The position numbers and the translations under genes were made by a program. A stretch of 40,829 nucleotides of DNA. Origin: Lachnospiraceae bacterium. Lineage in GTDB: Bacteria; Bacillota; Clostridia; Lachnospirales; Lachnospiraceae. Below, piece after piece: positions 9,861 through 32,645 of the stretch. The first letter of the stretch is position 1. Each line of letters starts with the position of its first letter. Location of the stretch: positions 1-40,829 of the forward strand of contig JAILCW010000087.1 of the NCBI GenBank assembly GCA_024690265.1, given 5' to 3'. The notes beneath the pieces are model-generated. The model did not search any database. It was not told the DNA's origin and worked only from the letters and a program-made list of their open reading frames with translations.

Positions 9861-11552
9861 CTAATCTTGTTTGTAATATGCAAGGATTTCCAAACTTAAA
9901 TCACTGAGCTGGTATGCATCGTCTTTGGCGATGCTATTGGAAAGCTCATCCTGAGCCAAACGGAACTCTATGATTTCTTCCGGAATGGCCTCTAGCTGTT
10001 CTATCCATTTGTTGGCTACGGTTTCGTTCCCGTCGGCCAATGCGCTTTCAATTCCTCGACCATAGAAAAGAATCAGATTGTCATAATTGGCAAAGTCATA
10101 TCTATGGTACTTTACAGCATTTTTGGCACGGTCAATGGCAAAGGTGTAATTGTTTTGCTTGTCATAATAAATGCTTAACGCGTTGTAGGCGGTGGGGTTC
10201 CATGGATTCTGTTTCAGCAATTCCTCCGCACGGGCGGGAATCGTCTCTAGCGTCATGTCGGAACTAAGGTCATACATTCGAACCTGCCAATTCCAAGGAT
10301 ACATGGCCATGGAAGTCTTATAGTGTCCCGTTAGAGACGCAAGGTCTGCAACTGCAAGCCAACCTAGGCCAAGACAGCAAATGGAGGTTGCAACCACTAT
10401 GCCAATTGGCTTGCGAGGCAATGGAACTGTGACAGCGGGGCTTTGCTCCGTCTCCCAGGGAATCAGAAGTAGGAATACCAGAACTATACTTTCGTACTGC
10501 ATATTAAAATCAACAAACATGATGATGCCGATGGTAATCAAAAGCCACCGTTTCATGCTGCGTTGTTTCCACAGACACATAAGTATAAATGTTGTAAAAC
10601 CAACAAAACCTATAATGCCATGATCTAATGCGATTTGTAACCAATCGTTATGAACGAACTGGACGGAGTAGGGGCCTGTTTGTATAGCGTTTTCCATCAT
10701 GGTAAATCCCTTATATCCCAAGCCCAGAGGGTTTGCTAATAGTACAGTCCATCCATCTCGCCAACAAATGATTCGTTCAATGAGGGTGCCGGAATGGAGC
10801 GACGTGGTGACGAATCGCCCAAAGCTTGTGGTATTGCCTGTGAGAAATACGTAGCAGACAAAGGATAATAGTATCGCAATGGAAAATAGTAACAGAAAAA
10901 TCCGTTGTTTGGTCATACGTGCAGCGATGAAGCAGATGCTTGGAACCAACAACATAAAGGCGCTACGGCTGCCGGTCCAAAAGATACCGCAGAGCAGACA
11001 AACAAATTGGAGATAAAACAAAACTTTAGGATATTGCTCGCGGTACTGAAATACCAGAATGACCCAGCCTATTAGCAGATATAGGCCCAATGCATTGGCA
11101 TAGAAGAAGTGTCCACCCAATCGTTGCAACACAAAGAACTCCCGTTGCAGAGCCGGAATGAAAAAGGTGATACATCCGGTAATCACGATACCGCAACCAA
11201 TGGCCGGAATCAGCTCTAGTACGTGGTCTCGTTCTTCTGAAGAAACTTGCAACAGGAATAACACAAAGAGTCCATCACAAACAAGACGCAGGATTCCAAG
11301 AATTGCCATGCCATGGGAAGGTGTGGAAATGACGGCAATGATACTTCCAATCAATAGAACCAAGGGGCCAATTACCATCTCCCGGGAACATAGCACAATC
11401 TTGCTTTGTCTCCAGATAAGAAGCAGGAAACCAGTGGCAGATAGAATACCCAGGAAATACATGACAGAAAGCTGATTGCTGCGCTGCAAAAGGACAGAAA
11501 GCAATAGCAATCCGCCCAATAGAATACGCGAAATAGAAGTGTTTGTATGCAT
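9861..11552 (-). CDS. O-antigen ligase/polymerase (Wzy/WaaL-like) membrane protein with TPR-like C-terminus
   Basis: About 10 TM segments, 'GTLIERIICWRDGWTVLLANPLGLGYKGF...QFVHNDWLQIALDHGIIGFVGF' typical of the Wzy_C/O-antigen ligase family; start at 11552 with RBS ggggagag. Confidence 0.8.
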   Translation of the reverse strand: MHTNTSISRILLGGLLLLSVLLQRSNQLSVMYFLGILSATGFLLLIWRQSKIVLCSREMVIGPLVLLIGSIIAVISTPSHGMAILGILRLVCDGLFVLFLLQVSSEERDHVLELIPAIGCGIVITGCITFFIPALQREFFVLQRLGGHFFYANALGLYLLIGWVILVFQYREQYPKVLFYLQFVCLLCGIFWTGSRSAFMLLVPSICFIAARMTKQRIFLLLFSIAILLSFVCYVFLTGNTTSFGRFVTTSLHSGTLIERIICWRDGWTVLLANPLGLGYKGFTMMENAIQTGPYSVQFVHNDWLQIALDHGIIGFVGFTTFILMCLWKQRSMKRWLLITIGIIMFVDFNMQYESIVLVFLLLIPWETEQSPAVTVPLPRKPIGIVVATSICCLGLGWLAVADLASLTGHYKTSMAMYPWNWQVRMYDLSSDMTLETIPARAEELLKQNPWNPTAYNALSIYYDKQNNYTFAIDRAKNAVKYHRYDFANYDNLILFYGRGIESALADGNETVANKWIEQLEAIPEEIIEFRLAQDELSNSIAKDDAYQLSDLSLEILAYYKQD

Positions 11553-11708
11553 GAATTCTCTCCCCAATACGATATGCGGCCGATTGCCGCTTCTCACATA
11601 GATGTTCTTATTATATATCATAATGAACAAAATATGTCGAATTGTTTGAAAATACTAGCCGAAAAGTGTAAAATATTGGTGAATATATATCTTGAGAGGG
11701 GAGTCATT

Positions 11709-14078
11709 ATGCAAGAAAAGAAGCTAAAGGGGAAAGCTATACTTGCAATTGTAATTGCGGCACTCGCGATTGTAGCGGTAATTCTGGCCGTAGTTCTCAT
11801 GAATCAAAACAAATTAACAGCCATGGTAATGCGTCTAATCCGCCAGGATGGTACGGTTGCGTTGCTGGACGAAAGTGGACAGAGCGTAACCATTATGGAC
11901 AATATGAAGCTATATTCCGGTAATGCATTAGAGACCGGTGGTGACGGATTGGTGGATTTGTCCTTGGATGAAAGCAAGTACCTGACGGTTGGAAATGATA
12001 GTAAAGTCGGCTTTGAGAAAAACGGTAAAGCTTTGAAACTGAATGTTGAAGAAGGCCGTCTGTTTTTCAATGTAGCTGAAAAGCTGGAAGCAGATGAAAC
12101 CATGGATATTAGTACATCCACTATGGTGGTTGGCATTCGTGGTACCAGTGGTGAAGTGGATATCATAACCGGCAATTTGTATGTGGGTGACGGAACATTG
12201 CATGTTACAGGTTATGATGAGGCGACCGGTGACACCGTCGAAGGGGACTTTACGGCGGGACAGGTGATCCATGTCTATGTTGGAAAACAGGTCAATGGTA
12301 AGAATGTTGCATTTGAATGGTCTAATTATACCGAGAAGGAAATGCCGGATGAAATGGTTCGGAACATGGTATTGAATCCGGAATACTTTGAGACCGTGTT
12401 AAGTGAAACGGATTTCTCTGCAAAGGAAATCATTAAGGAAGCAATTAAGCGTGAGATTCTTCCTCCGGAACAAATGGTGCTGTCCGAGGCAAATCAAAAG
12501 TTAGTTGAGGAAGCCAAGGCGGAAATAGAGGAAGAGAATAACAAGACCACGCAGACAACAGAGACCACCACTACAGAGCAAACCACAGAGACTGAGGAAG
12601 AAGAGGACGATACGACTACAACGCAGACCACGAGACGTCGTACCACCACTCAGCCTCAGACCCAGGAAGAAGCCCCAGCCCCAGCCCCGGCTCCGGCACC
12701 GGCTCCAGCCCCGGCCCCAGCACCGGATCCGGCACCGGCACAGTCCGATAGTAGTGATACACAGCAGACCACAGAAGAGCAGCAGGAAGAAACGACCTAT
12801 TCCATCACCATTGGAAGTGCTACCGGTGGAAGCGCATCTGCCAGTGCAACAACCGCTGCAGCAGGTACACAGATTACTCTGACCGCTTCTCCGTCCGAAG
12901 GATATGAGTTTGATAGTTGGAACGTAACAAGCGGTGGTGTCACCATTGAAAACAATGCATTTACCATGCCGGAAAGTGATGTATCTATTACACCGGTATT
13001 TAAGGAAACAGAGAAGCCTACCTACAGCGTAACCATTGGTTCTGCAACGGGAGGTAGTGCATCCGCAAGTGTTACCAGTGCAATCGCAGGAACAGAGGTA
13101 ACCCTTACCGCAACACCGGATACGGGCTATGTATTCGATAGTTGGAGCGTCACAAGCGGTGGCGTAACCATTACGGATAATGCATTTACCATGCCGGAGA
13201 GTGATGTTTCCATTACACCGGTATTTAAGCAAAATGTATTTAGCATTACCGTGAACCAGGCTGAGGGTGGAACCGTAACCGCCAGCGCAACGGAGGCAGA
13301 AGCCGGTACACAGATTTCACTTACCATTACACCGGATACCGGATATCGATTTGAGCGTTGGGCAGGAGTATCTCCGGAAGACGTTCTCATCGAGGATAGT
13401 TCCTTTATCATGCCGGAAAGCGACGTTACTATTTCACCTGCATTTATTGTAAAGAGTCCACATAATGTAACAGTTTCCTGGTTCGTTGGTGCAGATGAAA
13501 ACCCGCTTGATACATGGGGTACTGCTTCTGTTTCACCGGAAACCGATAGAACCACAGAAGGTCCATCTACAGGAAATGCTTACCGTTCATCTATTACGAT
13601 TACAGCATACGAAGGTGATGAGATAACTATTACGGCAACGCCGGAGGATTGGTATATCTTTAATGGTTGGACAATTGAAGGTAATGCAGAAGGATTGGAT
13701 AGTGGACAGGCAACCAATACCTTTATCATGCCGGATGAGGATGTTGTAGCCAAGGCAGACTTTATCGAAAAGACGTATCATATAACGCTTATATATGACG
13801 AAGTTATGTTAGGTGTATATTATTCGGATGATGAAGAACATGAAAATGTGATAACAAGCGGTACCGTCATTGATTGGGTTGGTGGTGTTGATGTGTCGGG
13901 ACTGAACTTTGACGTAGATATTCATGAAACAGGCGGCAATTCAAGCTACATGATTAATTCTATAACGACAAGCACCGGACAAACCATAGAGGTAGATGAC
14001 AATATGTTCTACTTCCATCCGAATGCGGATGATCCTGTTGACATAACCATTACCATCTCTTCAGCAGAAGTACATTAA
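11709..14078 (+). CDS. FecR-domain membrane-anchored extracellular protein with Pro-rich linker and InlB-B/bacterial-repeat-like modules
   Basis: N-terminal TM (KGKAILAIVIAALAIVAVILAVVL), FecR-like region 'SKYLTVGNDSKVGFEKNGKALKLNVEEGRLFFNV...TMVVGIRGTSGEVDI', APAPAPAP linker, then repeats ending 'FTMPESDVSITPVFK'; RBS gagagggga. Confidence 0.82.
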   Translation: MQEKKLKGKAILAIVIAALAIVAVILAVVLMNQNKLTAMVMRLIRQDGTVALLDESGQSVTIMDNMKLYSGNALETGGDGLVDLSLDESKYLTVGNDSKVGFEKNGKALKLNVEEGRLFFNVAEKLEADETMDISTSTMVVGIRGTSGEVDIITGNLYVGDGTLHVTGYDEATGDTVEGDFTAGQVIHVYVGKQVNGKNVAFEWSNYTEKEMPDEMVRNMVLNPEYFETVLSETDFSAKEIIKEAIKREILPPEQMVLSEANQKLVEEAKAEIEEENNKTTQTTETTTTEQTTETEEEEDDTTTTQTTRRRTTTQPQTQEEAPAPAPAPAPAPAPAPAPDPAPAQSDSSDTQQTTEEQQEETTYSITIGSATGGSASASATTAAAGTQITLTASPSEGYEFDSWNVTSGGVTIENNAFTMPESDVSITPVFKETEKPTYSVTIGSATGGSASASVTSAIAGTEVTLTATPDTGYVFDSWSVTSGGVTITDNAFTMPESDVSITPVFKQNVFSITVNQAEGGTVTASATEAEAGTQISLTITPDTGYRFERWAGVSPEDVLIEDSSFIMPESDVTISPAFIVKSPHNVTVSWFVGADENPLDTWGTASVSPETDRTTEGPSTGNAYRSSITITAYEGDEITITATPEDWYIFNGWTIEGNAEGLDSGQATNTFIMPDEDVVAKADFIEKTYHITLIYDEVMLGVYYSDDEEHENVITSGTVIDWVGGVDVSGLNFDVDIHETGGNSSYMINSITTSTGQTIEVDDNMFYFHPNADDPVDITITISSAEVH
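12673..12745 (+). repeat. Low-complexity Ala-Pro coding repeat
   Basis: Tandem ccagcc/ccggct codons encoding APAPAPAPAPAPAPAPDPAPA. Confidence 0.85.
12798..13452 (+). repeat. Three tandem ~71-aa extracellular repeats within the FecR protein (first two nearly identical), followed by a diverged fourth
   Basis: 'YSITIGSATGGSASASATTAAAGTQITLTASPSEGYEFDSWNVTSGGVTIENNAFTMPESDVSITPVFK' vs 'YSVTIGSATGGSASASVTSAIAGTEVTLTATPDTGYVFDSWSVTSGGVTITDNAFTMPESDVSITPVFK' vs 'FSITVNQAEGGTVTASATEAEAGTQISLTITPDTGYRFERWAG...FIMPESDVTISPAF'. Boundaries approximate. Confidence 0.8.
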
Positions 14079-14098
14079 TCGTTTATAGGGGAGAATAC

Positions 14099-14908
14099 AT
14101 GAAACTTACCGTACGCGGAGCCAGAGGCTCCGTGCCGGTAGCTGGAGCAGCCTTTGCTACCTATGGAGGGCAGACCTCCTGCTACCAGCTTGATATTGGA
14201 GGAAAACAGATTTATTTGGATGCCGGAAGTGGAATTATTCCGGCATCCTTCGACGTGGCGAAGAGTACCTACATTCTGTTGAGCCACCTACACTTGGATC
14301 ATATTCAGGGACTTCCATTTTTCTCTGGATTGACTCACGGGGAATCTCGTATTCATATCTATGGCAACGTTGGAGATGGGGCAGAGTATTCCGGTATCCA
14401 GGAGGCAATTAACACCGCATTTGGCAAGCCTTTCTGGCCACTGACTATTGATGAGTACCCTGCTACCGTAGATTGGCAGGATATTCGTGTAGGGGATTGT
14501 CTCACCTTTGAACCCAATGTAGAGGTGACTACCATGGCATCCAATCATCCTGGCGGAAGTATCATCTATGGTATCCGTGCAGAGGGATATTATGTTGTAT
14601 ATGCAACGGATTTTGAACATGGAAGTGCCAAGGATGAGGAACTGATTGAGTTTGCCAGAGATTGCGATGTGCTCATTTATGATGGTCAGTACACCCGGGA
14701 GGAATACAAGAAGTTTCAGGGGTATGGTCATTCTACCAAGGAACGGGGACTAGAGATACTAGAGGCCTGCGGGGGCAGGCAGATTCTGTTTAGTCACTAT
14801 CACACCACCCATACCGATGCTTTTCTTGCAGAGGAGGAAAAGCGCTTAGTAGCTATGGATGGACGTGTTCGTTTTGCAAAAGTGGGAGAAGTCATCGATT
14901 TTCCGTAA
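14099..14908 (+). CDS. MBL-fold metallo-hydrolase (RNase Z/PhnP-like phosphodiesterase superfamily)
   Basis: SHLHLDHIQGLPFF (HxHxDH), NHPGG, YATDFEH, FSHYH motifs. Confidence 0.88.
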   Translation: MKLTVRGARGSVPVAGAAFATYGGQTSCYQLDIGGKQIYLDAGSGIIPASFDVAKSTYILLSHLHLDHIQGLPFFSGLTHGESRIHIYGNVGDGAEYSGIQEAINTAFGKPFWPLTIDEYPATVDWQDIRVGDCLTFEPNVEVTTMASNHPGGSIIYGIRAEGYYVVYATDFEHGSAKDEELIEFARDCDVLIYDGQYTREEYKKFQGYGHSTKERGLEILEACGGRQILFSHYHTTHTDAFLAEEEKRLVAMDGRVRFAKVGEVIDFP

Positions 14909-14926
14909 CGACGAGGGGGTACAACC

Positions 14927-16381
14927 ATGAAGGAAATGACCAAAGAACGCCTGATGCAAATTGCAATTGCAATTACAGCGGAAAAAGACATCAATGTCGT
15001 ATTAGAGAATATTTTGACCGAAGCCATGGACTTCGTGAATTGTGATGGAGGGACAATCTATGTGGTGAAACCGGATTGTCTTGCGTTCCATACTGCAATC
15101 ACGAGGTCCAAAAACTTTTTTATGGGCAAAAATCAGGGAAACATGACCCTGCCACCGGTTCCTTTTTCCAAGAACCATGTATGTGCAGTATGTGCCATGG
15201 ATGATCGGCGTATCAATATCCCAGACGTATATGAAGCAGAGGGGTTCGATTTTAGCGGAGCCAAAAAGTACGATGAAATGAACAATTATCGTACCAAGTC
15301 CATGATGGTACTACCCATGGAGGATGATCGCGGCAAAGTAATTGGTGTGCTGCAGCTTATCAACGCCATGGATGATCATGGCGAGATTGTTCCATTTCCA
15401 ACAGAAGCAGAGAAAACGGTATATGCCCTTAACTCCCTTGCCGGCGTTAGCCTGCGGAACAAGAAACTGACGGAACAGGTTAAGGATTTGCTTCACAGCT
15501 TCGTGGGAGTTATGGCTACAGCCATTGATACCCGAAGCCCTTATAATGCCAACCATACCAAGAATATGGCCCGTTACGGCGAGCGTTTTATCACTTGGCT
15601 CAATGCCCAGGATTACGATTGGAAGTTCCCACAGGAGGAGATTGATCCTTATATCATGAGCATCTGGCTGCATGATGTGGGCAAACTGGTTATTCCGCTG
15701 GAAATCATGGACAAGCCGGATCGTATGGGAGACCGCATGGATGCGTGGCTCCACAAGATGGATATCGCTGCATTGATGAATCGTGTGGCAATCTTAGAAC
15801 ACCCGGAGTCTGCTGCTGAGGTGGAAGCCCTTCAGAAAAAGATGGATGAGGCCAAAGAGCTGATTCTTAAGTCCAATACGGCGGGATTTTTACCTAATGA
15901 AACACTAGAGGCTATTCGAGAGGCCGCAACCATTATGGTGACTACGGCAGAGAATGAGCAGGTACCGCTGCTGAATGCTGACGAATTGCATGCCATGCAG
16001 ATTCAAAAGGGAACACTGACGGCGGAAGAACGTGACATCATCCAGAGCCACGTGGTACATACCCATCGCCTATTGAATGAAGTGCACTTCGAAGGAGATT
16101 ATGAGATGGTTCCGGCCTGGGCCAGTGCCCATCATGAGTTCCTGGATGGAAGCGGATATCCGAATCATGAGACGGCAGATACCATCCCAAAGGAAGTACG
16201 CCTTTTGACCATTCTGGATGTTTACGATGCATTAACGGCGGAGGATCGACCCTACAAGCCACCAATGCCGATTGAAAAGGCATTTGGAATCTTAGATGCC
16301 ATGGTTGGTGAGGGCAAGTTGGACGGAGAGATTCTTCAGATGTTTAAGGATAGTGAGGCCTGGAAAAAGGAGGGTGTATGA
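14927..16381 (+). CDS. GAF domain plus HD-GYP phosphohydrolase
   Basis: N-terminal GAF-like region ('NYRTKSMMVLPMEDDRGKVIGVLQLIN'), 'IWLHDVGKLVIP', 'HHEFLDGSGYP', 'RLLTILDVYDALTAEDRPYK'. Confidence 0.87.
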   Translation: MKEMTKERLMQIAIAITAEKDINVVLENILTEAMDFVNCDGGTIYVVKPDCLAFHTAITRSKNFFMGKNQGNMTLPPVPFSKNHVCAVCAMDDRRINIPDVYEAEGFDFSGAKKYDEMNNYRTKSMMVLPMEDDRGKVIGVLQLINAMDDHGEIVPFPTEAEKTVYALNSLAGVSLRNKKLTEQVKDLLHSFVGVMATAIDTRSPYNANHTKNMARYGERFITWLNAQDYDWKFPQEEIDPYIMSIWLHDVGKLVIPLEIMDKPDRMGDRMDAWLHKMDIAALMNRVAILEHPESAAEVEALQKKMDEAKELILKSNTAGFLPNETLEAIREAATIMVTTAENEQVPLLNADELHAMQIQKGTLTAEERDIIQSHVVHTHRLLNEVHFEGDYEMVPAWASAHHEFLDGSGYPNHETADTIPKEVRLLTILDVYDALTAEDRPYKPPMPIEKAFGILDAMVGEGKLDGEILQMFKDSEAWKKEGV

Positions 16382-18189
16382 ATTTTATAACCCATAGCAG
16401 ATTGGTAAAACTTGGTGTGGCTGCCATTACGGCAGTAGTGATTACGCTGTTGGCGGGCCTGGGTGTATTTCGCTGGTTGGATAATCGCGTGGCAGATATG
16501 GTTTATCAGAAGCAGGAACTTACCTCCGGTAAAGTGCTGGTTATCGGTATTGATGAGAAGGCATTGCAGCAGTATGGCCCATTCCAATCCTGGGACCGCA
16601 GCATTATGGCCAAGGCCTTGGAACAGTTGGCTTCGGATACAGAGCGTCAACCGGCTGTAGTGGCTATTGATACCCTCTACAGTGGACTGCGACAAGATGC
16701 CAGTGATGATATGTTGGCTGCGGCAGCAGGCAAGTTGCCATGTGTGGTAACCGGTGCGTCTGCTGCCTTTGGAACTACCAGACAGTTTGATGAATCCGGC
16801 AAGGTCATCATCAACGATTATGCCATTACCGCATACGAGGAATCCTATGATGCGCTAAAGGCGGTTTCGAATATCGGCCACATCAACGCTATGTATGATG
16901 GGGACGGTGTGTTACGTCATAGCATCCTATACATCGACACTCCAAACGGAGAACGAATCTATTCCATGGCAGCGGTTGCTGCCGAGGAATATCTGAAACA
17001 GCAGGGCGAGTCCGTTGTATATCCAACAACAGATAGTCGCGGAAGATATTATGTGGCATACACGGGAGCGCCGGGAGACTTCTATGATGGCGTATCCATC
17101 TATGACCTTATTGAGGGCAACGTAGATCCTTCATACTATGCGGACAAAATCGTATATATCGGACCTTATGCGGCAGGCCTTGCAGATAATGTGATTACGC
17201 CGATTGATCGTTCCCGCAACATGTTTGGTGTGGAGTATCAGGCCAATGTGGTAGAACAGCTCCTGGCAGAAAATTACAAACAGGAAGCGCAGGATGGAAT
17301 TCAGTTGTTGCTTCTGTTTGTTATAACGTTTTGCACCATGGCGCTGTTTATTAAGTTAAAACTGGCACCATCCAGTGCTCTCGCATTTGTGCTCATTGGC
17401 GCTAGCCTGGGTATTGCAATCCTTTTGTATGGACGGGGATTGGTGGTACATCCGCTGTGGATTCCGCTTGGAATCTTTATCGTGTACATTCTTGTTATTA
17501 TCTGGGAATTCCTGCGACAGCGCGAAGCCAGAAAACAGATTACCAAGACCTTCGAGCGATACGTGGACTCCTCCATCGTAGCAGAGCTGTTAAAGGAAGG
17601 AACCGATGCCTTAGGACTGAATGGTAAGTCCTGCGAGATTGCCGTTTTATTCGTTGATATTCGTGGGTTTACCACTATGTCAGAACATATGACGGCGGAG
17701 CAGGTCGTATCTATTTTGGATGAATATCTTGGTATGTGTAGCGATTGCGTTCACAAGAATCACGGTACCCTGGATAAGTTTGTGGGTGACTGTACCATGG
17801 CTTTTTGGGGGGCACCTCTTCCTATGGAGAATCCGATGTTGCATGCGGTAAAATGTGCCCAGGACATCATTGATGGTGCAGCCCGAATCTCGGCAAGCTT
17901 GCAGGAGCGCATGGGTGTGCCGTTGAATGTGGGAGTTGGTGTTAACTATGGACATGCCGTTGTTGGTAATATCGGTGCGCCGGACCGTATGGACTACACC
18001 GCCATCGGAGATACCGTCAATACCGCTGCTCGATTAGAGGCCAACGCACCGGCTGGTCACATTTATATCAGCCGCGTGGTTGCTGATCAACTGAAGGATG
18101 ACATTTCTGTGGAGTCGCTGGGCGCCACCATCAAGCTCAAAGGTAAGGCTGAGGGCTTTGAAGTGCTCGACGTCACAGGGTGGAAGTAA
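16378..18189 (+). CDS. CHASE2-domain class III adenylate cyclase
   Basis: N-terminal TM, extracytoplasmic CHASE2-like domain, three TMs, then 'AVLFVDIRGFTTMSEHM', 'GTLDKFVGDCTMAFWGAP', 'YTAIGDTVNTAARLE' (metal Asp, adenine-specifying Lys/Asp, and Asn/Arg all present). ATGA overlap with the preceding gene. Confidence 0.92.
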   Translation: MNFITHSRLVKLGVAAITAVVITLLAGLGVFRWLDNRVADMVYQKQELTSGKVLVIGIDEKALQQYGPFQSWDRSIMAKALEQLASDTERQPAVVAIDTLYSGLRQDASDDMLAAAAGKLPCVVTGASAAFGTTRQFDESGKVIINDYAITAYEESYDALKAVSNIGHINAMYDGDGVLRHSILYIDTPNGERIYSMAAVAAEEYLKQQGESVVYPTTDSRGRYYVAYTGAPGDFYDGVSIYDLIEGNVDPSYYADKIVYIGPYAAGLADNVITPIDRSRNMFGVEYQANVVEQLLAENYKQEAQDGIQLLLLFVITFCTMALFIKLKLAPSSALAFVLIGASLGIAILLYGRGLVVHPLWIPLGIFIVYILVIIWEFLRQREARKQITKTFERYVDSSIVAELLKEGTDALGLNGKSCEIAVLFVDIRGFTTMSEHMTAEQVVSILDEYLGMCSDCVHKNHGTLDKFVGDCTMAFWGAPLPMENPMLHAVKCAQDIIDGAARISASLQERMGVPLNVGVGVNYGHAVVGNIGAPDRMDYTAIGDTVNTAARLEANAPAGHIYISRVVADQLKDDISVESLGATIKLKGKAEGFEVLDVTGWK

Positions 18190-24330: not shown

Positions 24331-24347
24331 GATTTTTCCCATAATAA

Positions 24348-24375
24348 AAGCCCAGGGCATTATGCTCTGGGCTTT
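24348..24375. terminator. Bidirectional terminator, copy 2 of an identical 28-nt repeat
   Basis: AAGCCCAGGGCATTATGCTCTGGGCTTT, identical to 19988-20015. Confidence 0.85.
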
Positions 24376-24379
24376 GTTT

Positions 24380-25459
24380 TTAGATTCCTAAGCGGTCCGG
24401 ATTCACTGCAAAGGTAAGTGCAGTCTCCTTGGTAATACGACCTCTCTGGTACAGGGACTTGATACTGTTGTCCATGGAAATCATGTTGTCGTTACCGGAA
24501 GTGGAGTAGATTACACCATCAATCTGGTAAATCTTGTTATCACGAATCATATTACGAATCGCCGGCGTGATGGTCATAATCTCGAAGGCAGGAACAATAC
24601 CACCATCAACGGTAGGTAGCAACTGCTGTGAAACAACGGCATTCAAAACGCAGGATAACTGTACTGCAATCTGATGCTGCTGGTTGGCCGGGAATACGTC
24701 CACGATACGGTTAATGGTGTTACTAGCACCAATGGTATGCAAGGTGGATAAGAGCAAGTGTCCGGTCTCTGCAGCGGTCATAGCAACGGAGATGGTCTCA
24801 AAGTCACGCATCTCACCAAGAAGGATAACATCCGGGCTCTGACGAAGGGCTGCACGAAGTGCGGAAACAAAACTCTCGGTGTCAACGTTTAACTCACGCT
24901 GAGAAACAATACTCTGATTGTGACGATGCAGATACTCAATTGGGTCCTCCAAGGTAATGATGTGAGAATTCTGTGTCTGATTGATGTGATCAATCATGCA
25001 GGCAAGGGTGGTAGACTTACCACTGCCGGCAGGACCGGTTACAAGAACCATGCCGTTGGTATCATTGCCCATCTCAATAATCTGAGGCGGAATGCCAAGC
25101 TCGTTCGGATCAGGCAACTGGAATGCGATGATACGAAGAACAGCGGACATAGAACCACGCTGCTTGTAAGCGCTGACACGGAAACGTGCAATACCGGGAA
25201 GTGCAATAGAGAAGTCGTCATCACCACACTCTAACAGGTTAATGTCTCGATTGTTTGCCAAGCGATATAAAGATTCTACAAATGCGTTGGTGGCATCCGG
25301 CATAAGACGATCATCATTCAACGCACAAATCGAACCGTGTTTACGATAGGAAATAGGACGGCCTGCAACAATAAAGATATCTGACGCATGGGCGTCAACG
25401 GTAGCTTGCAAGGTGTCCATTGTTTTTTTGTCAAATTGTTCCATTTCTTCCGGTGTCAT
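24380..25459 (-). CDS. pilT: PilT-type type IV pilus retraction ATPase
   Basis: 'VTGPAGSGKSTTLACMID' Walker A, 'ALRQSPDVILLGEMRD' Walker B, 'HLLLSTLHT', and PilT-like 'PAIRNMIRDNK'. Confidence 0.88.
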   Translation of the reverse strand: MTPEEMEQFDKKTMDTLQATVDAHASDIFIVAGRPISYRKHGSICALNDDRLMPDATNAFVESLYRLANNRDINLLECGDDDFSIALPGIARFRVSAYKQRGSMSAVLRIIAFQLPDPNELGIPPQIIEMGNDTNGMVLVTGPAGSGKSTTLACMIDHINQTQNSHIITLEDPIEYLHRHNQSIVSQRELNVDTESFVSALRAALRQSPDVILLGEMRDFETISVAMTAAETGHLLLSTLHTIGASNTINRIVDVFPANQQHQIAVQLSCVLNAVVSQQLLPTVDGGIVPAFEIMTITPAIRNMIRDNKIYQIDGVIYSTSGNDNMISMDNSIKSLYQRGRITKETALTFAVNPDRLGI

Positions 25460-25476
25460 ATGATCCCTCCCTCTAT

Positions 25477-25911
25477 TTATTGAATCAATGTTACCTGGTC
25501 AACAGCTTCCCACTCTACAGTGTCTACTGTTTTCCAACCAATGATGCGATAATCATGTCCGTTATCTGCAGGCTCTACAGTGACCTGTAATTCTTGGGTG
25601 TCACTCATTGGAAAATGCAGGGTCTGGGTGATGCTCAAAATAGAGGCACCACTATCTAATTCAACGCTTAAATCCCGAAGACTGACTTCAGCCTGATTGC
25701 AAGCGTTGTAATAGGCTTCTTTGCGGGCAATAAAGTCTGTGGCCTGTTTGGATTCGTTCAGTGCCGAAGACAGGGCAATGGCAGCAAATGTAAACAGGCA
25801 CAAAGCTAAGAATACCACAAGTAACAGGGAAATACCCATATTTACCGGCGGTAGTTGCCGTGTGTTTTTGCTATGTTTAATTTTGGTAAAACCTTGTTGT
25901 TCATTGTACAT
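25477..25911 (-). CDS. Pilin-like small membrane protein (minor pilin candidate)
   Basis: Basic N-terminus, 'NMGISLLLVVFLALCLFTFAAIAL' TM, then extracytoplasmic domain; within the pil operon. Confidence 0.6.
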   Translation of the reverse strand: MYNEQQGFTKIKHSKNTRQLPPVNMGISLLLVVFLALCLFTFAAIALSSALNESKQATDFIARKEAYYNACNQAEVSLRDLSVELDSGASILSITQTLHFPMSDTQELQVTVEPADNGHDYRIIGWKTVDTVEWEAVDQVTLIQ

Positions 25912-25913
25912 AA

Positions 25914-26426
25914 TTATTCTCCGGCCATATTATGGAAAAAGTGTTCAATGGTTAAATCATATACATGGGCAGTATTTCCACCGATGCGTACGCCAATATC
26001 GGCGGTTAACAGGCGGCTGTCCATGCCAAGTGTTACTTCTGCACAATAAGCAGCATCACTGTGTGCACATGGATGAAATGCATCATCATAGTAAATGTGA
26101 AGGATTGCCGGCAGGTCCGTCTCTTTTATTTTGGCTTTGGAAAGAGCAACTTCTTCTGTGCCGTCTCCCACAAGTATTACTGCGTCCGGATAGTAAGTCC
26201 CGAAACTGGAAATGGTATCTTCTACCGTCTCTCCGGAGCGAATAATCTCTGCAATGTTGCTGGCAATGGTTACATAATGTGTTTGTAAACTAGCATCGCG
26301 ACTAAGTGTGTGTGACTTAACGAATCCCACGATACAGATGGTTGCGATAATGGTAAATAGTAGGATGGAAAAAATCAGTTCCATCAGGAAAAGGCTTCCG
26401 TGAGAGGCCCGATGTCGTTGTGCCAT
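25914..26426 (-). CDS. Pilin-like small membrane protein
   Basis: 'MAQRHRASHGSLFLMELIFSILLFTIIATICIVGFV' resembles a prepilin N-terminus with a Glu near the start of the hydrophobic segment. Confidence 0.65.
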   Translation of the reverse strand: MAQRHRASHGSLFLMELIFSILLFTIIATICIVGFVKSHTLSRDASLQTHYVTIASNIAEIIRSGETVEDTISSFGTYYPDAVILVGDGTEEVALSKAKIKETDLPAILHIYYDDAFHPCAHSDAAYCAEVTLGMDSRLLTADIGVRIGGNTAHVYDLTIEHFFHNMAGE

Positions 26427-26439
26427 GTTACCCTCCCAA

Positions 26440-26928
26440 TTATTCTGTACAAACAGCTACCATAGCATCTGAGGTGTTGCCGGAGGAATCCGTGCAATGG
26501 AATGAGATTAGGTGAGCTGCATCTTCTTGAATGGTAAAATCAACCAGGTCGAGGATTGCGGTACCGCTACCGATGGCCATGTCACTGACACGAGAGGCAT
26601 CTGCGGTCATCTCGTAGAGCTTGCCGTCTGCAAAGTAGATGTACGTAATATAATCGACGTCGTTGATGTTGTTATGCAATAAAAGGGCGTCAGCATCATG
26701 GAACTTGCCTACTTCTATGCCGTCTGAATCATCTGCCTGACGAACCTTTTCGGTAACGTAGGCCAGGGCGGTGTTAGCACTGTAGTTCCGTGAGGAATTG
26801 TCTACAATCTTTTGATAGATCTGCGCTGCAAACAAAATGATAAACAGCGCTGACAAGGTAAAAATCAGAAACAGTAAGATTGGAAACACATATTCCATTG
26901 GCCCGGATTTCTTTTTGTCATTTCGCAT
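26440..26928 (-). CDS. Pilin-like small membrane protein (possibly DUF4860-like)
   Basis: 'MRNDKKKSGPMEYVFPILLFLIFTLSALFIILFAAQIYQ' followed by a ~115-aa domain. Confidence 0.6.
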   Translation of the reverse strand: MRNDKKKSGPMEYVFPILLFLIFTLSALFIILFAAQIYQKIVDNSSRNYSANTALAYVTEKVRQADDSDGIEVGKFHDADALLLHNNINDVDYITYIYFADGKLYEMTADASRVSDMAIGSGTAILDLVDFTIQEDAAHLISFHCTDSSGNTSDAMVAVCTE

Positions 26929-26939
26929 GTCTGTGACTC

Positions 26940-27281
26940 CTAATTTGTTTTCCGCTCGAGAATCGTTACGTCAGGATAGACGTTGGTTCCCTGAACATGA
27001 TAATCAATGAAAAACAAGTCCTCATCATAGGTCAGGCCGTACTCGGATTTGATGAAATCCAAATCTGTAGGATAACGACCGGTGGTTGCGTAGCAATAAA
27101 TGATGTCGTTCTTGAGCGCATTCTCTAAGCTTTCACGCTGACGTGAAGTGGTACCACTGGATAGGATATTGGTTGCAAACGCAAACAATCCGATGATACC
27201 GGCAAACGCCAACAGTGGAAGAAACATCATAAACCCTTTGCTACGGCTCCGATGGGAATCGTTGTACTCAAATCGTGCCAT
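26940..27281 (-). CDS. Pilin-like small membrane protein
   Basis: 'RSKGFMMFLPLLAFAGIIGLFAFATNIL' TM, then 'SLENALKNDIIYCYATTGRYPTDLDFI', resembling the helix and first strand of type IV pilin-like proteins. Confidence 0.65.
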   Translation of the reverse strand: MARFEYNDSHRSRSKGFMMFLPLLAFAGIIGLFAFATNILSSGTTSRQRESLENALKNDIIYCYATTGRYPTDLDFIKSEYGLTYDEDLFFIDYHVQGTNVYPDVTILERKTN

Positions 27282-27296
27282 AGTGCATCACCTCTT

Positions 27297-28352
27297 TTAC
27301 AAGCTGGCCATGATGCCCAACAGTGGGAACATAACGGATAGCAAAATAATACCTACAATAACGGACAGAACAATGATTAATGCCGGCTCTAATACCGCCA
27401 GACGATTGTTAATCTTGTTATCGATGTCTTCCTGATACAAATCGGAAATCTGGCTCATTACCTGGTCTAAGGCACCGGTCTTGTTACCGATGGAAGTCAT
27501 ACGGGAGTATACGCCACCGAAGATACCAACTTCCTTTAGGGCATCTGCCATGGTAAGACCTTCCATCATCTTGGTGTTACATTCTGTAAGCTCCTTTTTG
27601 AATGTCGGGTCTTCACTTAATTCACTAACCAGCTCAAAGCACTGGTCCGGAGTTAGACCACTTCGAAGCGTGATGGCCATACCACCTGCAAAGTGGCAAG
27701 CGTTGATGCGATTGTTCAGCTCACGGAAGAACTTGAACTTGTTCAGGAAGCTGTGGCTCATCTGTCGACCCTTTTCGGTGCGGGCACCAAGGAATGCAAT
27801 TACCAACAAAACAGCCAGAATCAGAATCAATGCCATGGAATAACGACCAATGGCGGTTCCTACATTCAACAAGCCTGCTGCAAAACCGGTCATCTCGGTA
27901 CCTAACTGCTGGAATACCTGATTGAAGATAGGCATAACCTTGACCAATAGAATGAGGATAACGATGATAATCATGCCGGCCATAATGAACGGATAAATCA
28001 AAGCATTTTGAATGGAAACACGAATGCTTTCTTCACGCTCATAGTGCTCCTGCAGAGATACCATAACTTCGTCTAAGTTACCGGTCTGCTCACCGATGCG
28101 AACCATGTGCAACATGTAATTCGGGAAAAGTCCGGTGTTTTGCATGGATTCGAACAGGCTGCCGTTTTGTAACATATCGTTTTTGATGGCATCTAAGATA
28201 GCCCGATCCTCTTCAGTGGAGTTGTCATCCTTCATCATATCGATACCTTCCAGAGAGGAGATACCGGACTTAAGGATGAGGGCCATTTGTCCACAGAAGT
28301 AGGACAGTTCATTATTGTCGAGTTTTCTTCCGATTTTCTTTTCTTGTTCCAT
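27297..28352 (-). CDS. pilC: PilC/GspF-type platform protein
   Basis: 'MVRIGEQTGNLDEVMVSLQEHYEREESIR', 'SIGNKTGALDQVMSQISDLYQEDIDNKINNRLAVLEPALIIVLSVIVGIILLSVMFPLL' typical of T2SSF. Confidence 0.92.
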   Translation of the reverse strand: MEQEKKIGRKLDNNELSYFCGQMALILKSGISSLEGIDMMKDDNSTEEDRAILDAIKNDMLQNGSLFESMQNTGLFPNYMLHMVRIGEQTGNLDEVMVSLQEHYEREESIRVSIQNALIYPFIMAGMIIIVILILLVKVMPIFNQVFQQLGTEMTGFAAGLLNVGTAIGRYSMALILILAVLLVIAFLGARTEKGRQMSHSFLNKFKFFRELNNRINACHFAGGMAITLRSGLTPDQCFELVSELSEDPTFKKELTECNTKMMEGLTMADALKEVGIFGGVYSRMTSIGNKTGALDQVMSQISDLYQEDIDNKINNRLAVLEPALIIVLSVIVGIILLSVMFPLLGIMASL

Positions 28353-28390
28353 ATATAACTCCCTTTAGTTATGCTTGAAATCCAACAGAA

Positions 28391-29398
28391 TTAGTAATTA
28401 TATTTTACGGTGTAATTGCTACCGTCGCCAACGTATTCCTTAATGGCGGAACTGCTGTTGGCTTTATTGGCGGCAAGAGTAGGATCCATCAGGGACCAGG
28501 TGCTGCCGTCAAATTGAATAATGTTATCAACCCAACCAATTTCATCCAGGTAAACGCTAATCCATGCATGGTAGGCTGTTCCGGAGTATCCAACTACTAG
28601 CTTGGTAGGAACACCTTGGGAACGAAGCAGGGCACTCATCAGAGATGCATAGTCAAAACAGATGCCCTTTTTGGAAGCCAACGTTGATGCAGGATCCGGA
28701 ATGTAATTGGTTCCGATATTAGCGGCCAATTCCTCGTCATAAGTTACGTTATCAATTACGTAATTGTAGACGTTGGTGACATAGCCCAAATCATCTGCAG
28801 ACTTGTCGGATAACTGTACACCCAAGGTTGTAGTACTGGAGGATGCAGTATAGTCCACGTATTGGTTCGGATACAAAAACGGTCGAAACTCATCGTTGAT
28901 GGATACGGAAATGTTGTCGGAGTATCCCAGCGAATACATATTGTCGGATACATGCTCTAACACATCCACCTTGTAGGAACCGCTACCGCCGGTCAGAGGA
29001 AATACACGAGGTGCTCCGAGATTCAGCGGATACGGATACATGGTGCCATCCGGGTAAGTGATTTGAACCTGAACCTTGTCTGCACCGCCGGTATAAGTCA
29101 GTGTCAGATAACCCTCCGAGGTATTGGAAATATCCAAGGAAATGGTTTCGTTCCCGAGGACTTCCTGGCCTGGTGCTTCCGGCATGAGAAAGTCATGTAC
29201 TGTGGCTCGCCCGCCTTCTTCTACAACGGCAGAAGATGTGGAGGAAGTAGATGCAGAGCTGTTTTCGGAACTACTGCTGCTGGGAAGAGGGAAACCTCCG
29301 CCACCACCATCATCGGAACCGCAGCCTCCCAGGATTAATCCCGCACTCAGGAGACATACCGCCATGAGTTTTTGCATAAGAATGGTTTGTTTTTTCAT
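28391..29398 (-). CDS. Transglutaminase-like lipoprotein
   Basis: Lipobox LILGGC; Cys-His-Asp triad 'KGICFDYASLMSALLRSQGVPTKLVVG...YHAWISV...WSLMDPTLA'. Confidence 0.88.
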   Translation of the reverse strand: MKKQTILMQKLMAVCLLSAGLILGGCGSDDGGGGGFPLPSSSSSENSSASTSSTSSAVVEEGGRATVHDFLMPEAPGQEVLGNETISLDISNTSEGYLTLTYTGGADKVQVQITYPDGTMYPYPLNLGAPRVFPLTGGSGSYKVDVLEHVSDNMYSLGYSDNISVSINDEFRPFLYPNQYVDYTASSSTTTLGVQLSDKSADDLGYVTNVYNYVIDNVTYDEELAANIGTNYIPDPASTLASKKGICFDYASLMSALLRSQGVPTKLVVGYSGTAYHAWISVYLDEIGWVDNIIQFDGSTWSLMDPTLAANKANSSSAIKEYVGDGSNYTVKYNY

Positions 29399-29412
29399 AA
29401 TCTAGTTCTCTC

Positions 29413-30456
29413 TTAATCGTGGGATAGCAGCAGGTGTAAACGATTGCCTGCCATATCCGGAATAACAATATCAATATTGCCACCGGGATAATCAAAGGAA
29501 AATGATTCCTGGTCCTCGGTAATATTCGTCGTAATGGAAAGTCGCTCCCCAGTCAGGGTCATAATGCTGACGTTATCGTAGTCCACACCACTGCCTGCAT
29601 CGTCGACCACCAGGGTTACCACGCCGGAGCGCAGATGGGATTCCGTTACCTGCGGTGCTTCACGGTCCACTTCGGTTACGGTTAGCTGCTGCTGTCTGGT
29701 GGTGTTATTAAAATAGGTGACGCACACATCCATTTCACCGTTGGTTGTGGGCTTGATGTCAAAAAGACTTCGACTGTCCTGAGTCACCGGCATCATCTGG
29801 CTATCTATTTGGGCAACTACGGACTTGACCCGAATCAGGCTGCTGACATTGACATGGTAGGTCACGATCCCATGCTCCACTTCCTCGGATATATGGAAGT
29901 TGGGCGAAATAAACCATAGTGGGGATGCACAAATAAATGCAATCACCACAATCAATGCCAATCGCTGTACATGCAACTGGTTCAGTCGGTATTCATGGAA
30001 CTCAGCCAGCGAATCCAGCGGAAGGGTGTTGGGCTCTTTTCCAATTTCAAAAAACAGGTATTCCAACATTTGGCCGGCAATGTCCATCTTCATGCGAGGT
30101 GCTTTATGCCCAAAAATCTTACGACGCATCCGCGGTGTATTTGTCGGCAGGGCAACTACAGAGTTCCACTTGTCCGGATCTTGCTTACGAAGGGACAACA
30201 GCAGGTGCTTTTCTTCGATGTTGCGCAACCAAGCATGAAAACTACGTGGTGACAGCATCTGATCCAATGTGGTAAATGCCTCGGCATAGGTGTCGGTCAC
30301 AATGTCCTGGGTTAGATATTCACTTTGTGTGTAGTAGTATGCCCGCTGATAAAGCTTCTGGTAAGTGGCAACGTAGAGAATCGCGTATGCGTTGGAATCT
30401 CCACCGAGGGCTTCCTCTATCAGACGCTTATAGTAGGCGGCTCTGCCTCTATCCAT
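29413..30456 (-). CDS. Sigma-70 region-2-like domain fused to a TM segment and extracytoplasmic domain
   Basis: N-terminus 'DSNAYAILYVATYQKLYQRAYYYTQSEYLTQDIVTDTYAEAFTTLDQM...SFHAWLRNI' resembles ECF sigma region 2; TM 'LALIVVIAFICASPLWFI'; Ig-like C-terminus. No recognisable region 4. Confidence 0.6.
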   Translation of the reverse strand: MDRGRAAYYKRLIEEALGGDSNAYAILYVATYQKLYQRAYYYTQSEYLTQDIVTDTYAEAFTTLDQMLSPRSFHAWLRNIEEKHLLLSLRKQDPDKWNSVVALPTNTPRMRRKIFGHKAPRMKMDIAGQMLEYLFFEIGKEPNTLPLDSLAEFHEYRLNQLHVQRLALIVVIAFICASPLWFISPNFHISEEVEHGIVTYHVNVSSLIRVKSVVAQIDSQMMPVTQDSRSLFDIKPTTNGEMDVCVTYFNNTTRQQQLTVTEVDREAPQVTESHLRSGVVTLVVDDAGSGVDYDNVSIMTLTGERLSITTNITEDQESFSFDYPGGNIDIVIPDMAGNRLHLLLSHD

Positions 30457-30457
30457 G

Positions 30458-31195
30458 CTACGTCTCCTCTAATGTTGAAGCCTCCGTTGTTTCATCATCA
30501 CGATACAGAGACTTTACCATCTCCAAACGACGATTGGAGAGAGCAACCAGCTCTGTAATCTGTTTCACGTGCTGCTCATGAAAAGCCATGCCATAGGAAT
30601 AGGTCATACGAGGATTCTGTGGGTCACCATTGTGATCCATGACTTTTTGGTCAATGCGTGCCAGAAACTCATCCATAATTTCCCGGCTGGAATCCTCGAA
30701 GATTGCCAGAAATCGATTACCTCCGTTACGTCCAACGAAACAGGTATTTACGGATGCCATTTTAAGAATGATGGAAAAATTGCGAATCTGACGATTACCC
30801 GCCATACGGTTATAGTTGCGGTTGGTCTCTTCTAAGCTGGTCAATTCAAACATAATGCATCCCATATCCGGTGGTAACGGTTGGTCGATGTACTGCTCAA
30901 TCAATTCGTCACAGCCATTGCGGTTGGCAATCTTGGCCAGAGGATCGGAGTGAGCGGCATAATCCAAAGCGCGATAGTCACGCTTCTGGGTAATGTACAT
31001 AGAAAAATCGATAAAGATAAATAAAAATGAGAAAAACAGGCATATCCATAGAAGGACAGAAAACAGACGGACAGAATGACTGATGGCGATGGATGGTGCA
31101 ACGTCATCATCGGTTACAATTAAAAGAAAGCAAACGATGGCCAGTGCTGTAAAGATAAACAATTGAACCGTCTTAAGAATGTCCAACTTTTTCAT
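30458..31195 (-). CDS. Two-TM degenerate GGDEF-like protein
   Basis: 'DYAAHSDPLAKIANRNGCDELI' (cf. D.LT...NR), but the active-site loop is 'RNGGNRFLAIF' rather than GG[DE]EF. Confidence 0.75.
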   Translation of the reverse strand: MKKLDILKTVQLFIFTALAIVCFLLIVTDDDVAPSIAISHSVRLFSVLLWICLFFSFLFIFIDFSMYITQKRDYRALDYAAHSDPLAKIANRNGCDELIEQYIDQPLPPDMGCIMFELTSLEETNRNYNRMAGNRQIRNFSIILKMASVNTCFVGRNGGNRFLAIFEDSSREIMDEFLARIDQKVMDHNGDPQNPRMTYSYGMAFHEQHVKQITELVALSNRRLEMVKSLYRDDETTEASTLEET

Positions 31196-31227
31196 AAAAA
31201 CCTCCCCGTCAATATGAAAAACGATGT

Positions 31228-31938
31228 CTACTTGTGACTGCGATAATCCTGTATCTTTTGGCTAATCTGTGATAACTCACGAATCTTCACCGGGAACTGC
31301 TGTCCATCCGTAAGGATGCACACCCCGTCCTCGATGCGGTCAATATAGTCCATGTTAACGACGACTCCCTTGTTGATGGCAAGGAAACGTTCGTCCTGTT
31401 CCAACTCATCCATAAACTGAACCAGGGTATTGCGGGATTGAAACTCCTCGTCGTCCATATTCGTAATAATCAGATAGTGGCCCTGAGTCGTAATGGAAGT
31501 GATGTCACTGCGCTTCAAGGTATACTTCTGACGATTCACAGAAATGGTGACATAGTGTTCTACCTCTGGCAACACACGGGTGGCGTCAGATAATAATTGA
31601 TTGATTCGATCGGGCTTGGGAGGCTTGACGATGTAATCGAAGGCGTGCAATGTAAATGCCTGTGGCATGTTGTCTACACTGGTGGTGCAGAAGATAATCA
31701 TGACCTCCGGCTCCTTGACACGGATGGCTTCTGCAACCTCGATTCCGGTGATATCCCCCATGTAGATGTCGAGAAAGACGATGGTATATCGGCCGGGCTG
31801 GAATTCACGAATGAATGCCTGCGAATCGGTATAATAACTGGTGGCAATCTCTACGTTGTGTTCTGTGGCATAGCCACGAATCAACGCCTGCAACTGCATG
31901 CAGCTAATCTTTTCGTCGTCAACAATTACGATGTTCAT
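31228..31938 (-). CDS. LytTR-family response regulator
   Basis: Receiver 'MNIVIVDDEKIS...IVFLDIYMGDITGIEVA' plus LytTR 'RSDITSITTQGHYLIITNMDDEEF...RFLAINKGVVVNMDYIDRIE'. Confidence 0.92.
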   Translation of the reverse strand: MNIVIVDDEKISCMQLQALIRGYATEHNVEIATSYYTDSQAFIREFQPGRYTIVFLDIYMGDITGIEVAEAIRVKEPEVMIIFCTTSVDNMPQAFTLHAFDYIVKPPKPDRINQLLSDATRVLPEVEHYVTISVNRQKYTLKRSDITSITTQGHYLIITNMDDEEFQSRNTLVQFMDELEQDERFLAINKGVVVNMDYIDRIEDGVCILTDGQQFPVKIRELSQISQKIQDYRSHK

Positions 31939-32129
31939 AAGTCCCCATTACTCCGTTTCGAGTCTTATAATAAGTATATCCTTCTCCAAATTATACCTCT
32001 ATTTTATTAAAGTGCCCTATGGAAGTCAACGCATTCATCCCATTGGACAGGTGGATAAAAACATGGATATTGCAATCTTTTTCACATAGGGGGATAATTA
32101 GAAAAAGAGATTACTATGAGGGAACACTT

Positions 32130-32645
32130 ATGCCGTTGACATCACATCGTAAGGATCCAATTTATCAAAAATACAAGTCCGGAGAGCAGAACCTATTTAC
32201 GCTGGTACTTTTGTTGGTAGCGGTGTTACTTGTTCTGTTTTTTTTGTTGCAATTCGTATTTGGCAGTTCCAGGGTAGAAGGACAGTCCATGGACCCTACC
32301 CTAGTGGACGGACAGACCATCTTTTTTACCAGAATTCATCCTTCCTACCGTGTGGGAGATATTGTCTGCATCAGCATGCCGAATGGCGACAATTACGTAA
32401 AACGTGTGGTGGCGGTTCCGGAAAATGTGGTAGAATTAAAGGATGGAACGCTCTATGTCAATGGAGAAGCACAGACTTCCTATGGTCACGGTTCGACGGC
32501 AGCCCAAGAGGCTAGCATTACCTATCCTTATACCGTAGAGAAGAATAAGTATTTTGTATTAGGAGATAATCGAGAACATTCCGTAGATTCTCGTAGTTTT
32601 GGTGCAGTATACCGAGGCCAGATTCTCGGACGAGTGATACATTGA
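32130..32645 (+). CDS. lepB: Signal peptidase I
   Basis: 'VEGQSMDPTLVDGQTIFFTR', 'GDIVCISMPNGDNYVKRVVAVPENVVELKDGTLYVNG', 'YFVLGDNREHSVDSRSFG'. Confidence 0.92.
   Translation: MPLTSHRKDPIYQKYKSGEQNLFTLVLLLVAVLLVLFFLLQFVFGSSRVEGQSMDPTLVDGQTIFFTRIHPSYRVGDIVCISMPNGDNYVKRVVAVPENVVELKDGTLYVNGEAQTSYGHGSTAAQEASITYPYTVEKNKYFVLGDNREHSVDSRSFGAVYRGQILGRVIH

Follow-up and report, generated by a model that had tools for sequence, protein, structure and literature searches.

A PilT-only gene block with pilin-like proteins in Lachnospiraceae: a variant of the type IV filament superfamily

Gene content and organization of the locus

The analyzed stretch, hereafter the window, is 40,829 nt long and represents one contig (JAILCW010000087.1; C139 in our numbering, in which C, G and L denote contigs, genomes and loci) of a metagenome-assembled genome (MAG) of a Lachnospiraceae bacterium (GCA_024690265.1; 77% complete, 189 contigs). 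It contains an operon of ten open reading frames (ORFs) on the minus strand, running head to tail from position 31938 down to 24380 with gaps of 1–38 nt, as described in the original prediction from the sequence alone, which had put the gaps under approximately 40 nt. The window proteins were compared with family models (Pfam, NCBIfam/TIGR), and the MAG itself was searched by family models only.

The last gene, pilT (24380–25459), encodes a hexameric ATPase of the PilT clade (359 aa; TIGR01420, 410 bits, over the cut-off), which is the sole motor of the block. The four genes ahead of it code for pilin-like proteins: p144 (25477–25911), a single-transmembrane (TM) protein with a GspK/PilX-like N-terminus; p170 (25914–26426), GspI/PilV-like; the DUF4860 protein (PF16152; 26440–26928), GspJ/PilW-like; and p113 (26940–27281), a small protein with a 53-residue N-terminal helix, a short helix and two strands. 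No family was matched by p113, p170 and p144 of the window in the family-model scans, and Pfam scans of the p170 and p144 members gave just weak single matches (T2SSI, PilX_N). Next follow the gene for the PilC/GspF platform (27297–28352), with two T2SSF domains (PF00482), and tgl (28391–29398), encoding a secreted lipoprotein (lipobox Cys26) with a transglutaminase-fold domain (PF01841), while three putative regulatory genes open the operon.

Conservation and distribution of the block

The conserved unit consists of seven genes, tgl-pilC-p113-DUF4860-p170-p144-pilT. Among 80 loci gathered via PilT, mostly from Lachnospiraceae, Oscillospiraceae and other Clostridia and also from Erysipelotrichaceae, Pseudoramibacter and Christensenella, the order pilC-p113-DUF4860-p170-p144-pilT was almost invariant. 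Of the 74 well-covered DUF4860 loci, in which the sequence reached far enough upstream, all contained pilC, p113, p170 and p144, whereas 67 contained pilT and 64 contained tgl. All ten genes in the window order were found, among the loci examined, only in a genome of the same genus (G049; 91% complete), whose PilT is 97% identical to that of the window; broad conservation of the gene order holds for the tgl-to-pilT part, but not for the full set of ten. DUF4860 was detected in 52 of the 150 genomes sampled across the family and in 14 of the 399 sampled across the phylum, in several families.

In L144 (9612–11520; genome G102) a 636-aa ORF lies between p144 and pilT. L042 and L060 each contain an additional PilT-like gene of very divergent sequence (minus strand, at 4388 and 5804, respectively), which stands tail to tail with the block pilT and is followed by a gene for a large GGDEF protein.

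The PilT motor and the PilC platform

The Walker A, Asp box, Walker B, His box and AIRNxIR motifs of PilT are all intact and conserved, in accordance with the earlier assignment of the only ATPase to the PilT type, and the key catalytic residues of PilT, together with the transglutaminase triad, are conserved at 94–100%. In a quick tree with a midpoint root the DUF4860-linked PilTs formed one clade (89 rows, SH-aLRT 97) apart from the PilB-linked PilTs; the divergent extra PilTs of L042 and L060 fell outside it. The clade is marked by Phe29 (His in PilT and PilB), Ser/Ala208 (Asp in both), Gln207 (Glu in PilT, Gln in PilB) and mostly Leu/Val288 (Arg in PilT and PilB). With its intact motifs and clade-specific residue changes, the block PilT looks like an active ATPase under constraints unlike those acting on ordinary PilT.

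The PilC of the window is devoid of approximately 50 N-terminal residues present in PilB-linked PilC: in the block PilCs the FxxQ anchor is preceded by 16 residues (median), versus 61–95 in PilB-linked PilCs of the family. Because ComGB is similarly short at its N-terminus, this feature is consistent with independence from PilB but does not prove it. In P. aeruginosa, the N-terminal domain of PilC is the part that binds PilB (PMC4527729).

The pilin-like subunits

The class III signal (Gly at −1 plus Glu5) is absent from the window proteins and from nearly all of their relatives, while it is present in locus L114 and in the PilB loci; in a control scan Gly at −1 was found in the clear prepilins encoded by the family's PilB loci, the other matches being unrelated reading frames. 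In p170 the glutamate at the +5 place (Glu16 in the window) occurs in 76 of 78 members, but Gly/Ala at −1 in 17 of 78 only. The p144 proteins have an invariant glycine (Gly26; 77 rows) and no Glu5, as in GspK-type tip subunits. Neither p113, with its conserved motif C-Y-A-x-x-G-x-Y-P, nor DUF4860, including the window protein, carries a prepilin motif, with the exceptions of L114 (DUF4860 only) and of L119, a canonical locus arranged as pilB-pilT-pilC-pilin-pilD-minor pilins-pilMNO-like.

The origin of two of the subunits could be traced through these exceptions. L114, which occupies the most basal position in the DUF4860-linked clade, kept canonical motifs in both DUF4860 (NGYSLIEMM) and p170 (KGISLVELI). 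Profiles built without L114 and L119 recovered L114 at 2.3e-29 (DUF4860) and 2.7e-18 (p170) and matched the GspJ-position pilin of L119 with DUF4860 (2.7e-7) and its GspI-position pilin with p170 (2.6e-5). At the level of sequence, this identifies DUF4860 and p170 as descendants of ordinary prepilins that have lost the processing site. AlphaFold predicted a 53-residue helix with a tiny head for p113 (pLDDT 88.7) and a TM helix with an eight-strand beta head for DUF4860 (pLDDT 92.8).

PilB, PilD and other motors in the carrier genomes

Two possibilities had been offered originally: that the block acts in trans with PilB and a prepilin peptidase encoded elsewhere, or that it is a variant device driven by a PilT-like ATPase. 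The search for PilB, PilD and PilM proposed at that time was performed on the family genomes with TIGR02538, which tells PilB (> ~300 bits) from PilT (≤ ~150 bits), and with models for the other components. PilB was found in 70 of the 150 family genomes, and its presence was independent of that of DUF4860 (counts 23/29/47/51, odds ratio 0.86, Fisher p = 0.73): 23 of the 52 DUF4860 genomes had PilB and in 29 it was not found. The latter included genomes assembled into approximately one (G085), five (G102) and seven (G138) contigs, and 23 of the 29 are at least 90% complete, which rules out that PilB was hidden through MAG incompleteness. The N-terminal domain of PilD (PF06750) was detected in none of the 29 PilB-less DUF4860 genomes versus 17 of the 23 with PilB, which speaks against the borrowing of PilD from another system. 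PilM_2 gave only weak or partial matches in the PilB-less carriers, read as noise from related ATPase folds. In a T2SSE search of 14 PilB-less genomes (11 of high quality) the strong matches were PilT and CpaF-type ATPases, the rest being weak or sub-threshold.

The window contains neither PilB nor PilD, as had been noted, and no PilB was found in its MAG, where T2SSE matched the block PilT itself, one CpaF and one CpaF-like ATPase, with a single further match below the threshold. The A24 peptidases of this MAG are short only, both on contig C23 with its separate Tad locus. The 29 carriers with neither PilB nor the PilD N-domain lead us to reject the explanation in trans for the family. It is highly improbable also for the strain from which the window comes, because in G049, of the same genus, PilB was likewise not found.

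Two candidates for a substitute peptidase were considered. The transglutaminase-fold protein is unlikely to act as one, since it is a secreted lipoprotein, whereas prepilin cleavage takes place on the cytoplasmic side. Signal peptidase I, encoded at 32019–32645 divergently from the operon, was dropped, as a motif search found none in the related loci examined.

Several observations concern the CpaF-type ATPases themselves. In genome G000 (contig C182:4036–4668; L003) a second, distant CpaF-like ATPase has a large membrane protein as a neighbor and no recognizable pilin, and this locus may resemble the prepilin-less tad-like loci of Imam et al. (2011). The CpaF of G138, a 100%-complete genome, is apparently split by approximately 18 kb (C1:1452389–1471229), and that of G057 lies on two contigs, C52 and C3; the splits suggest that a mobile element was inserted into the Tad ATPase gene.

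The transglutaminase-fold partner, upstream regulators and flanking genes

The catalytic triad of the transglutaminase-fold protein (Cys247/His277/Asp305 in the window) is conserved, with Cys in 64 of 64, His in 65 of 65 and Asp in 64 of 65 sequences. The coupling to three regulators, proposed from the window, holds locally but is not general. A LytTR response regulator, the first gene of the operon (31228–31938; response regulator and LytTR family matches), was seen directly heading the block only in the genus of the window, and GGDEF, extracytoplasmic function (ECF) sigma and membrane protein genes precede a minority of the 74 well-covered blocks (15, 15 and 11, respectively). The regulator genes are lineage-specific.

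The product of 29413–30456 had been described as a sigma-region-2-like membrane protein. The weak match to sigma-70 region 2 was confirmed, but the protein turned out to be a fusion, its two halves being encoded by neighboring genes in relatives (L053:4862–6177; L143:12539–13874): residues 8–80 match a full ECF sigma factor, of which region 4 is lost in the window, and residues 120–344 match the adjacent membrane protein, forming the TM part with its extracellular domain. The fusion suggests that the ECF sigma factor and the membrane protein work together. The second gene (30458–31195) codes for a membrane protein with a degenerate GGDEF domain (PF00990; motif GGNRF), and since the motif reads GGNxF in eight of the nine proteins inspected, diguanylate cyclase activity appears doubtful.

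The neighbor of the operon on the upstream side is the signal peptidase I gene, which is divergent, and that on the downstream side an SDR gene, which is convergent. Consensus matches only point to a promoter-like site 5' of the operon (TTGACT-17-TAAAAT, 32001–32029, minus strand) and to a terminator-like stem-loop of 13 pairs between the operon and the SDR gene (24347–24375, scored on the plus strand). Elsewhere in the window (11547–18189, plus strand) the translations alone were read as a FecR-like protein with repeat domains, a metallo-hydrolase, a GAF/HD-GYP-like protein and a CHASE2-type adenylate cyclase-like protein.

Relation to known systems

By the usual description, a type IV filament machine requires cleaved pilins and an ATPase for extension, while PilT serves mainly for retraction. 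The block has the homologous platform, motor and pilins that define the superfamily in the broad sense, with p113 and p144 included by architecture only. Excerpts of a superfamily survey (PMC6668835) require an ATPase, a platform and a major pilin, and list no PilT-only class. Since defining features of the type IVa pilus, of Com and of Tad were looked for and not found, we place the block inside the superfamily as a variant and in none of these three.

With the type IVa pilus it shares clear homologues of PilT and PilC, as well as p170 and DUF4860 resembling the GspI- and GspJ-position pilins of the canonical L119, but in 29 of 52 carriers no PilB was found, nor in those 29 a PilD-type peptidase domain or a convincing PilM. 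In the block itself there is no canonical major pilin, the prepilin sites are lost and the PilC N-terminus is missing. The ComG pseudopilus of Bacillota is similar in that a single operon supplies one ATPase, a short PilC/ComGB and pilin-like subunits of which some are small and others larger; it differs in its ComGA ATPase, as opposed to the PilT-clade enzyme, in its prepilin sites and in the absence of a transglutaminase partner. The Tad pilus needs CpaF/TadA with TadB and TadC, whereas the block has PilT and a single two-domain PilC. The tad-like loci reported from Clostridia (Imam et al., 2011; PMC3244431) are likewise filament-type operons without prepilin motifs or any recognizable prepilin, but contain TadA/TadC and TadV in place of PilT/PilC and no peptidase gene. 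Finally, DotB/TraJ of type IVB secretion are PilT-family ATPases working without PilB, and their NCBIfam models matched at 146–172 bits, below the cut-off; however, the window ATPase is far closer to PilT (410 bits), and no type IVB secretion genes were recognized nearby. In open-licence papers, no paper was found naming DUF4860 or describing PilT-only clusters in Lachnospiraceae.

Proposed mechanism and its alternatives

We give about an even chance to the block being a stand-alone, reduced member of the superfamily, in which a short, non-elongating pilin complex is driven by PilT through PilC and acts together with the wall-side transglutaminase-fold protein. The parts are in place: the PilC platform, the PilT-clade ATPase as the only dedicated motor and four membrane-tethered pilin-like subunits. 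The Glu5 of one subunit in a type IV filament forms a salt bridge with the free N-terminus of the one that follows, and the minor-pilin tip complex is capped by a subunit without Glu5 (PMC10191384). Most of the block subunits have no Glu5 and probably keep a hydrophilic N-terminus, which would rule out this salt bridge. With unprocessed N-termini and Glu5 in a single subunit, polymerization to any great length is unlikely, and the simplest reading is a short complex of the four subunits; they would form a fixed assembly like the GspHIJK/PilHIJK tip complex instead of a long pilus. By turning against PilC at the expense of ATP, PilT would then push or rotate this stub through the wall, where the stub and the secreted lipoprotein would jointly act on the wall itself or on a surface substrate. 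This function of the block as a whole is our inference. An ordinary hair-like pilus is probably not what is encoded here.

Several findings weigh against this interpretation. In seven well-covered loci the block is without pilT. Genomes G031, G037, G041, G080 and G128 have a block of this kind and a PilT elsewhere, and the two of these PilTs that were placed in the tree fell near PilB-linked PilTs. A rumen group of loci has no tgl, and the role given to the transglutaminase-fold protein is drawn from its gene neighborhood only. A second motor might, in theory, be provided by CpaF. Almost every genome has A24 peptidases of the size of TadV, which makes the presence of a peptidase as such uninformative and leaves room for cleavage of p144 at its invariant glycine or of the other subunits at odd sites. 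Foldseek gave no significant PDB match for p113 and DUF4860 (PilA4 was an insignificant one for p113), profile searches against the PDB gave nothing significant, and p113 was not linked to pilins by profile. Therefore, p113 and p144 are pilin-like by architecture only, and the prediction of four pilin-like proteins is borne out by homology to canonical prepilins for p170 and DUF4860.

The main rival, possible though rather unlikely, is a true filament extended and retracted by the single PilT-clade ATPase, with p113 as the major subunit polymerizing without Glu5 or cleavage, or after TadV-type cleavage. A single bidirectional motor has a precedent in CpaF of Tad pili (PMC11300603), and in V. 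cholerae PilT is needed for MSHA extension as well and can help it (PMC9815625). The PilB-like Gln207 in place of the PilT glutamate, the long pilin-type helix and small head of p113 and the TadV-size peptidases also fit, but three of the four subunits have no Glu5, three have no conserved glycine at −1 and none resembles a canonical major pilin. A competence-type pseudopilus pulling DNA through the wall, in which PilT would replace ComGA, is improbable: the comG-like economy of the block (ATPase, short PilC with ComGB model matches, a small pilin-like subunit next to three larger ones, and no secretin) and the absence of a ComGA-type ATPase from the 14 genomes checked speak for it, whereas Com uses a PilB-type ATPase and cleaved pilins, and the constant partner here is a transglutaminase-fold protein, no com gene having been recognized as a conserved neighbor (ComEC/ComEA were not searched for).

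It is hardly credible that the block merely supplies retraction and minor pilins to a canonical type IV pilus whose other genes lie elsewhere, the case that would have overturned the original prediction. PilB does occur in 23 of the 52 DUF4860 genomes, but near-complete carriers are without it, the two are distributed independently and PilB loci usually bring their own pilT and pilC. Least credible of all is a decaying, functionless pilus operon: the processing signals are lost and the sigma gene is fused and truncated, but the key catalytic residues of PilT and the transglutaminase triad are kept at 94–100% and the gene order is maintained across several families of Bacillota.

The distinct PilT clade, the short PilC and the pilins deprived of processing signals favor the second of the original possibilities, a variant device driven by a PilT-like ATPase. 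That it constitutes a distinct class, PilT-only, with unprocessed pilin-like subunits in a short, envelope-bound piston or rotor independent of PilB and prepilin peptidase, is a tentative proposal whose chances we place a little short of even.

Biological significance

A conserved lineage devoid of PilB and PilD provides a test of two questions: can a PilT-clade ATPase power work via PilC by itself, and do only long polymers require Glu5 and N-terminal cleavage? Such systems are easily missed or mis-annotated, as searches require a prepilin motif and the ATPase is entered in databases as a twitching-motility protein. Approximately one third of the sampled Lachnospiraceae genomes carry the block, so that a surface machine as yet unstudied would be widespread among commensals of the gut.

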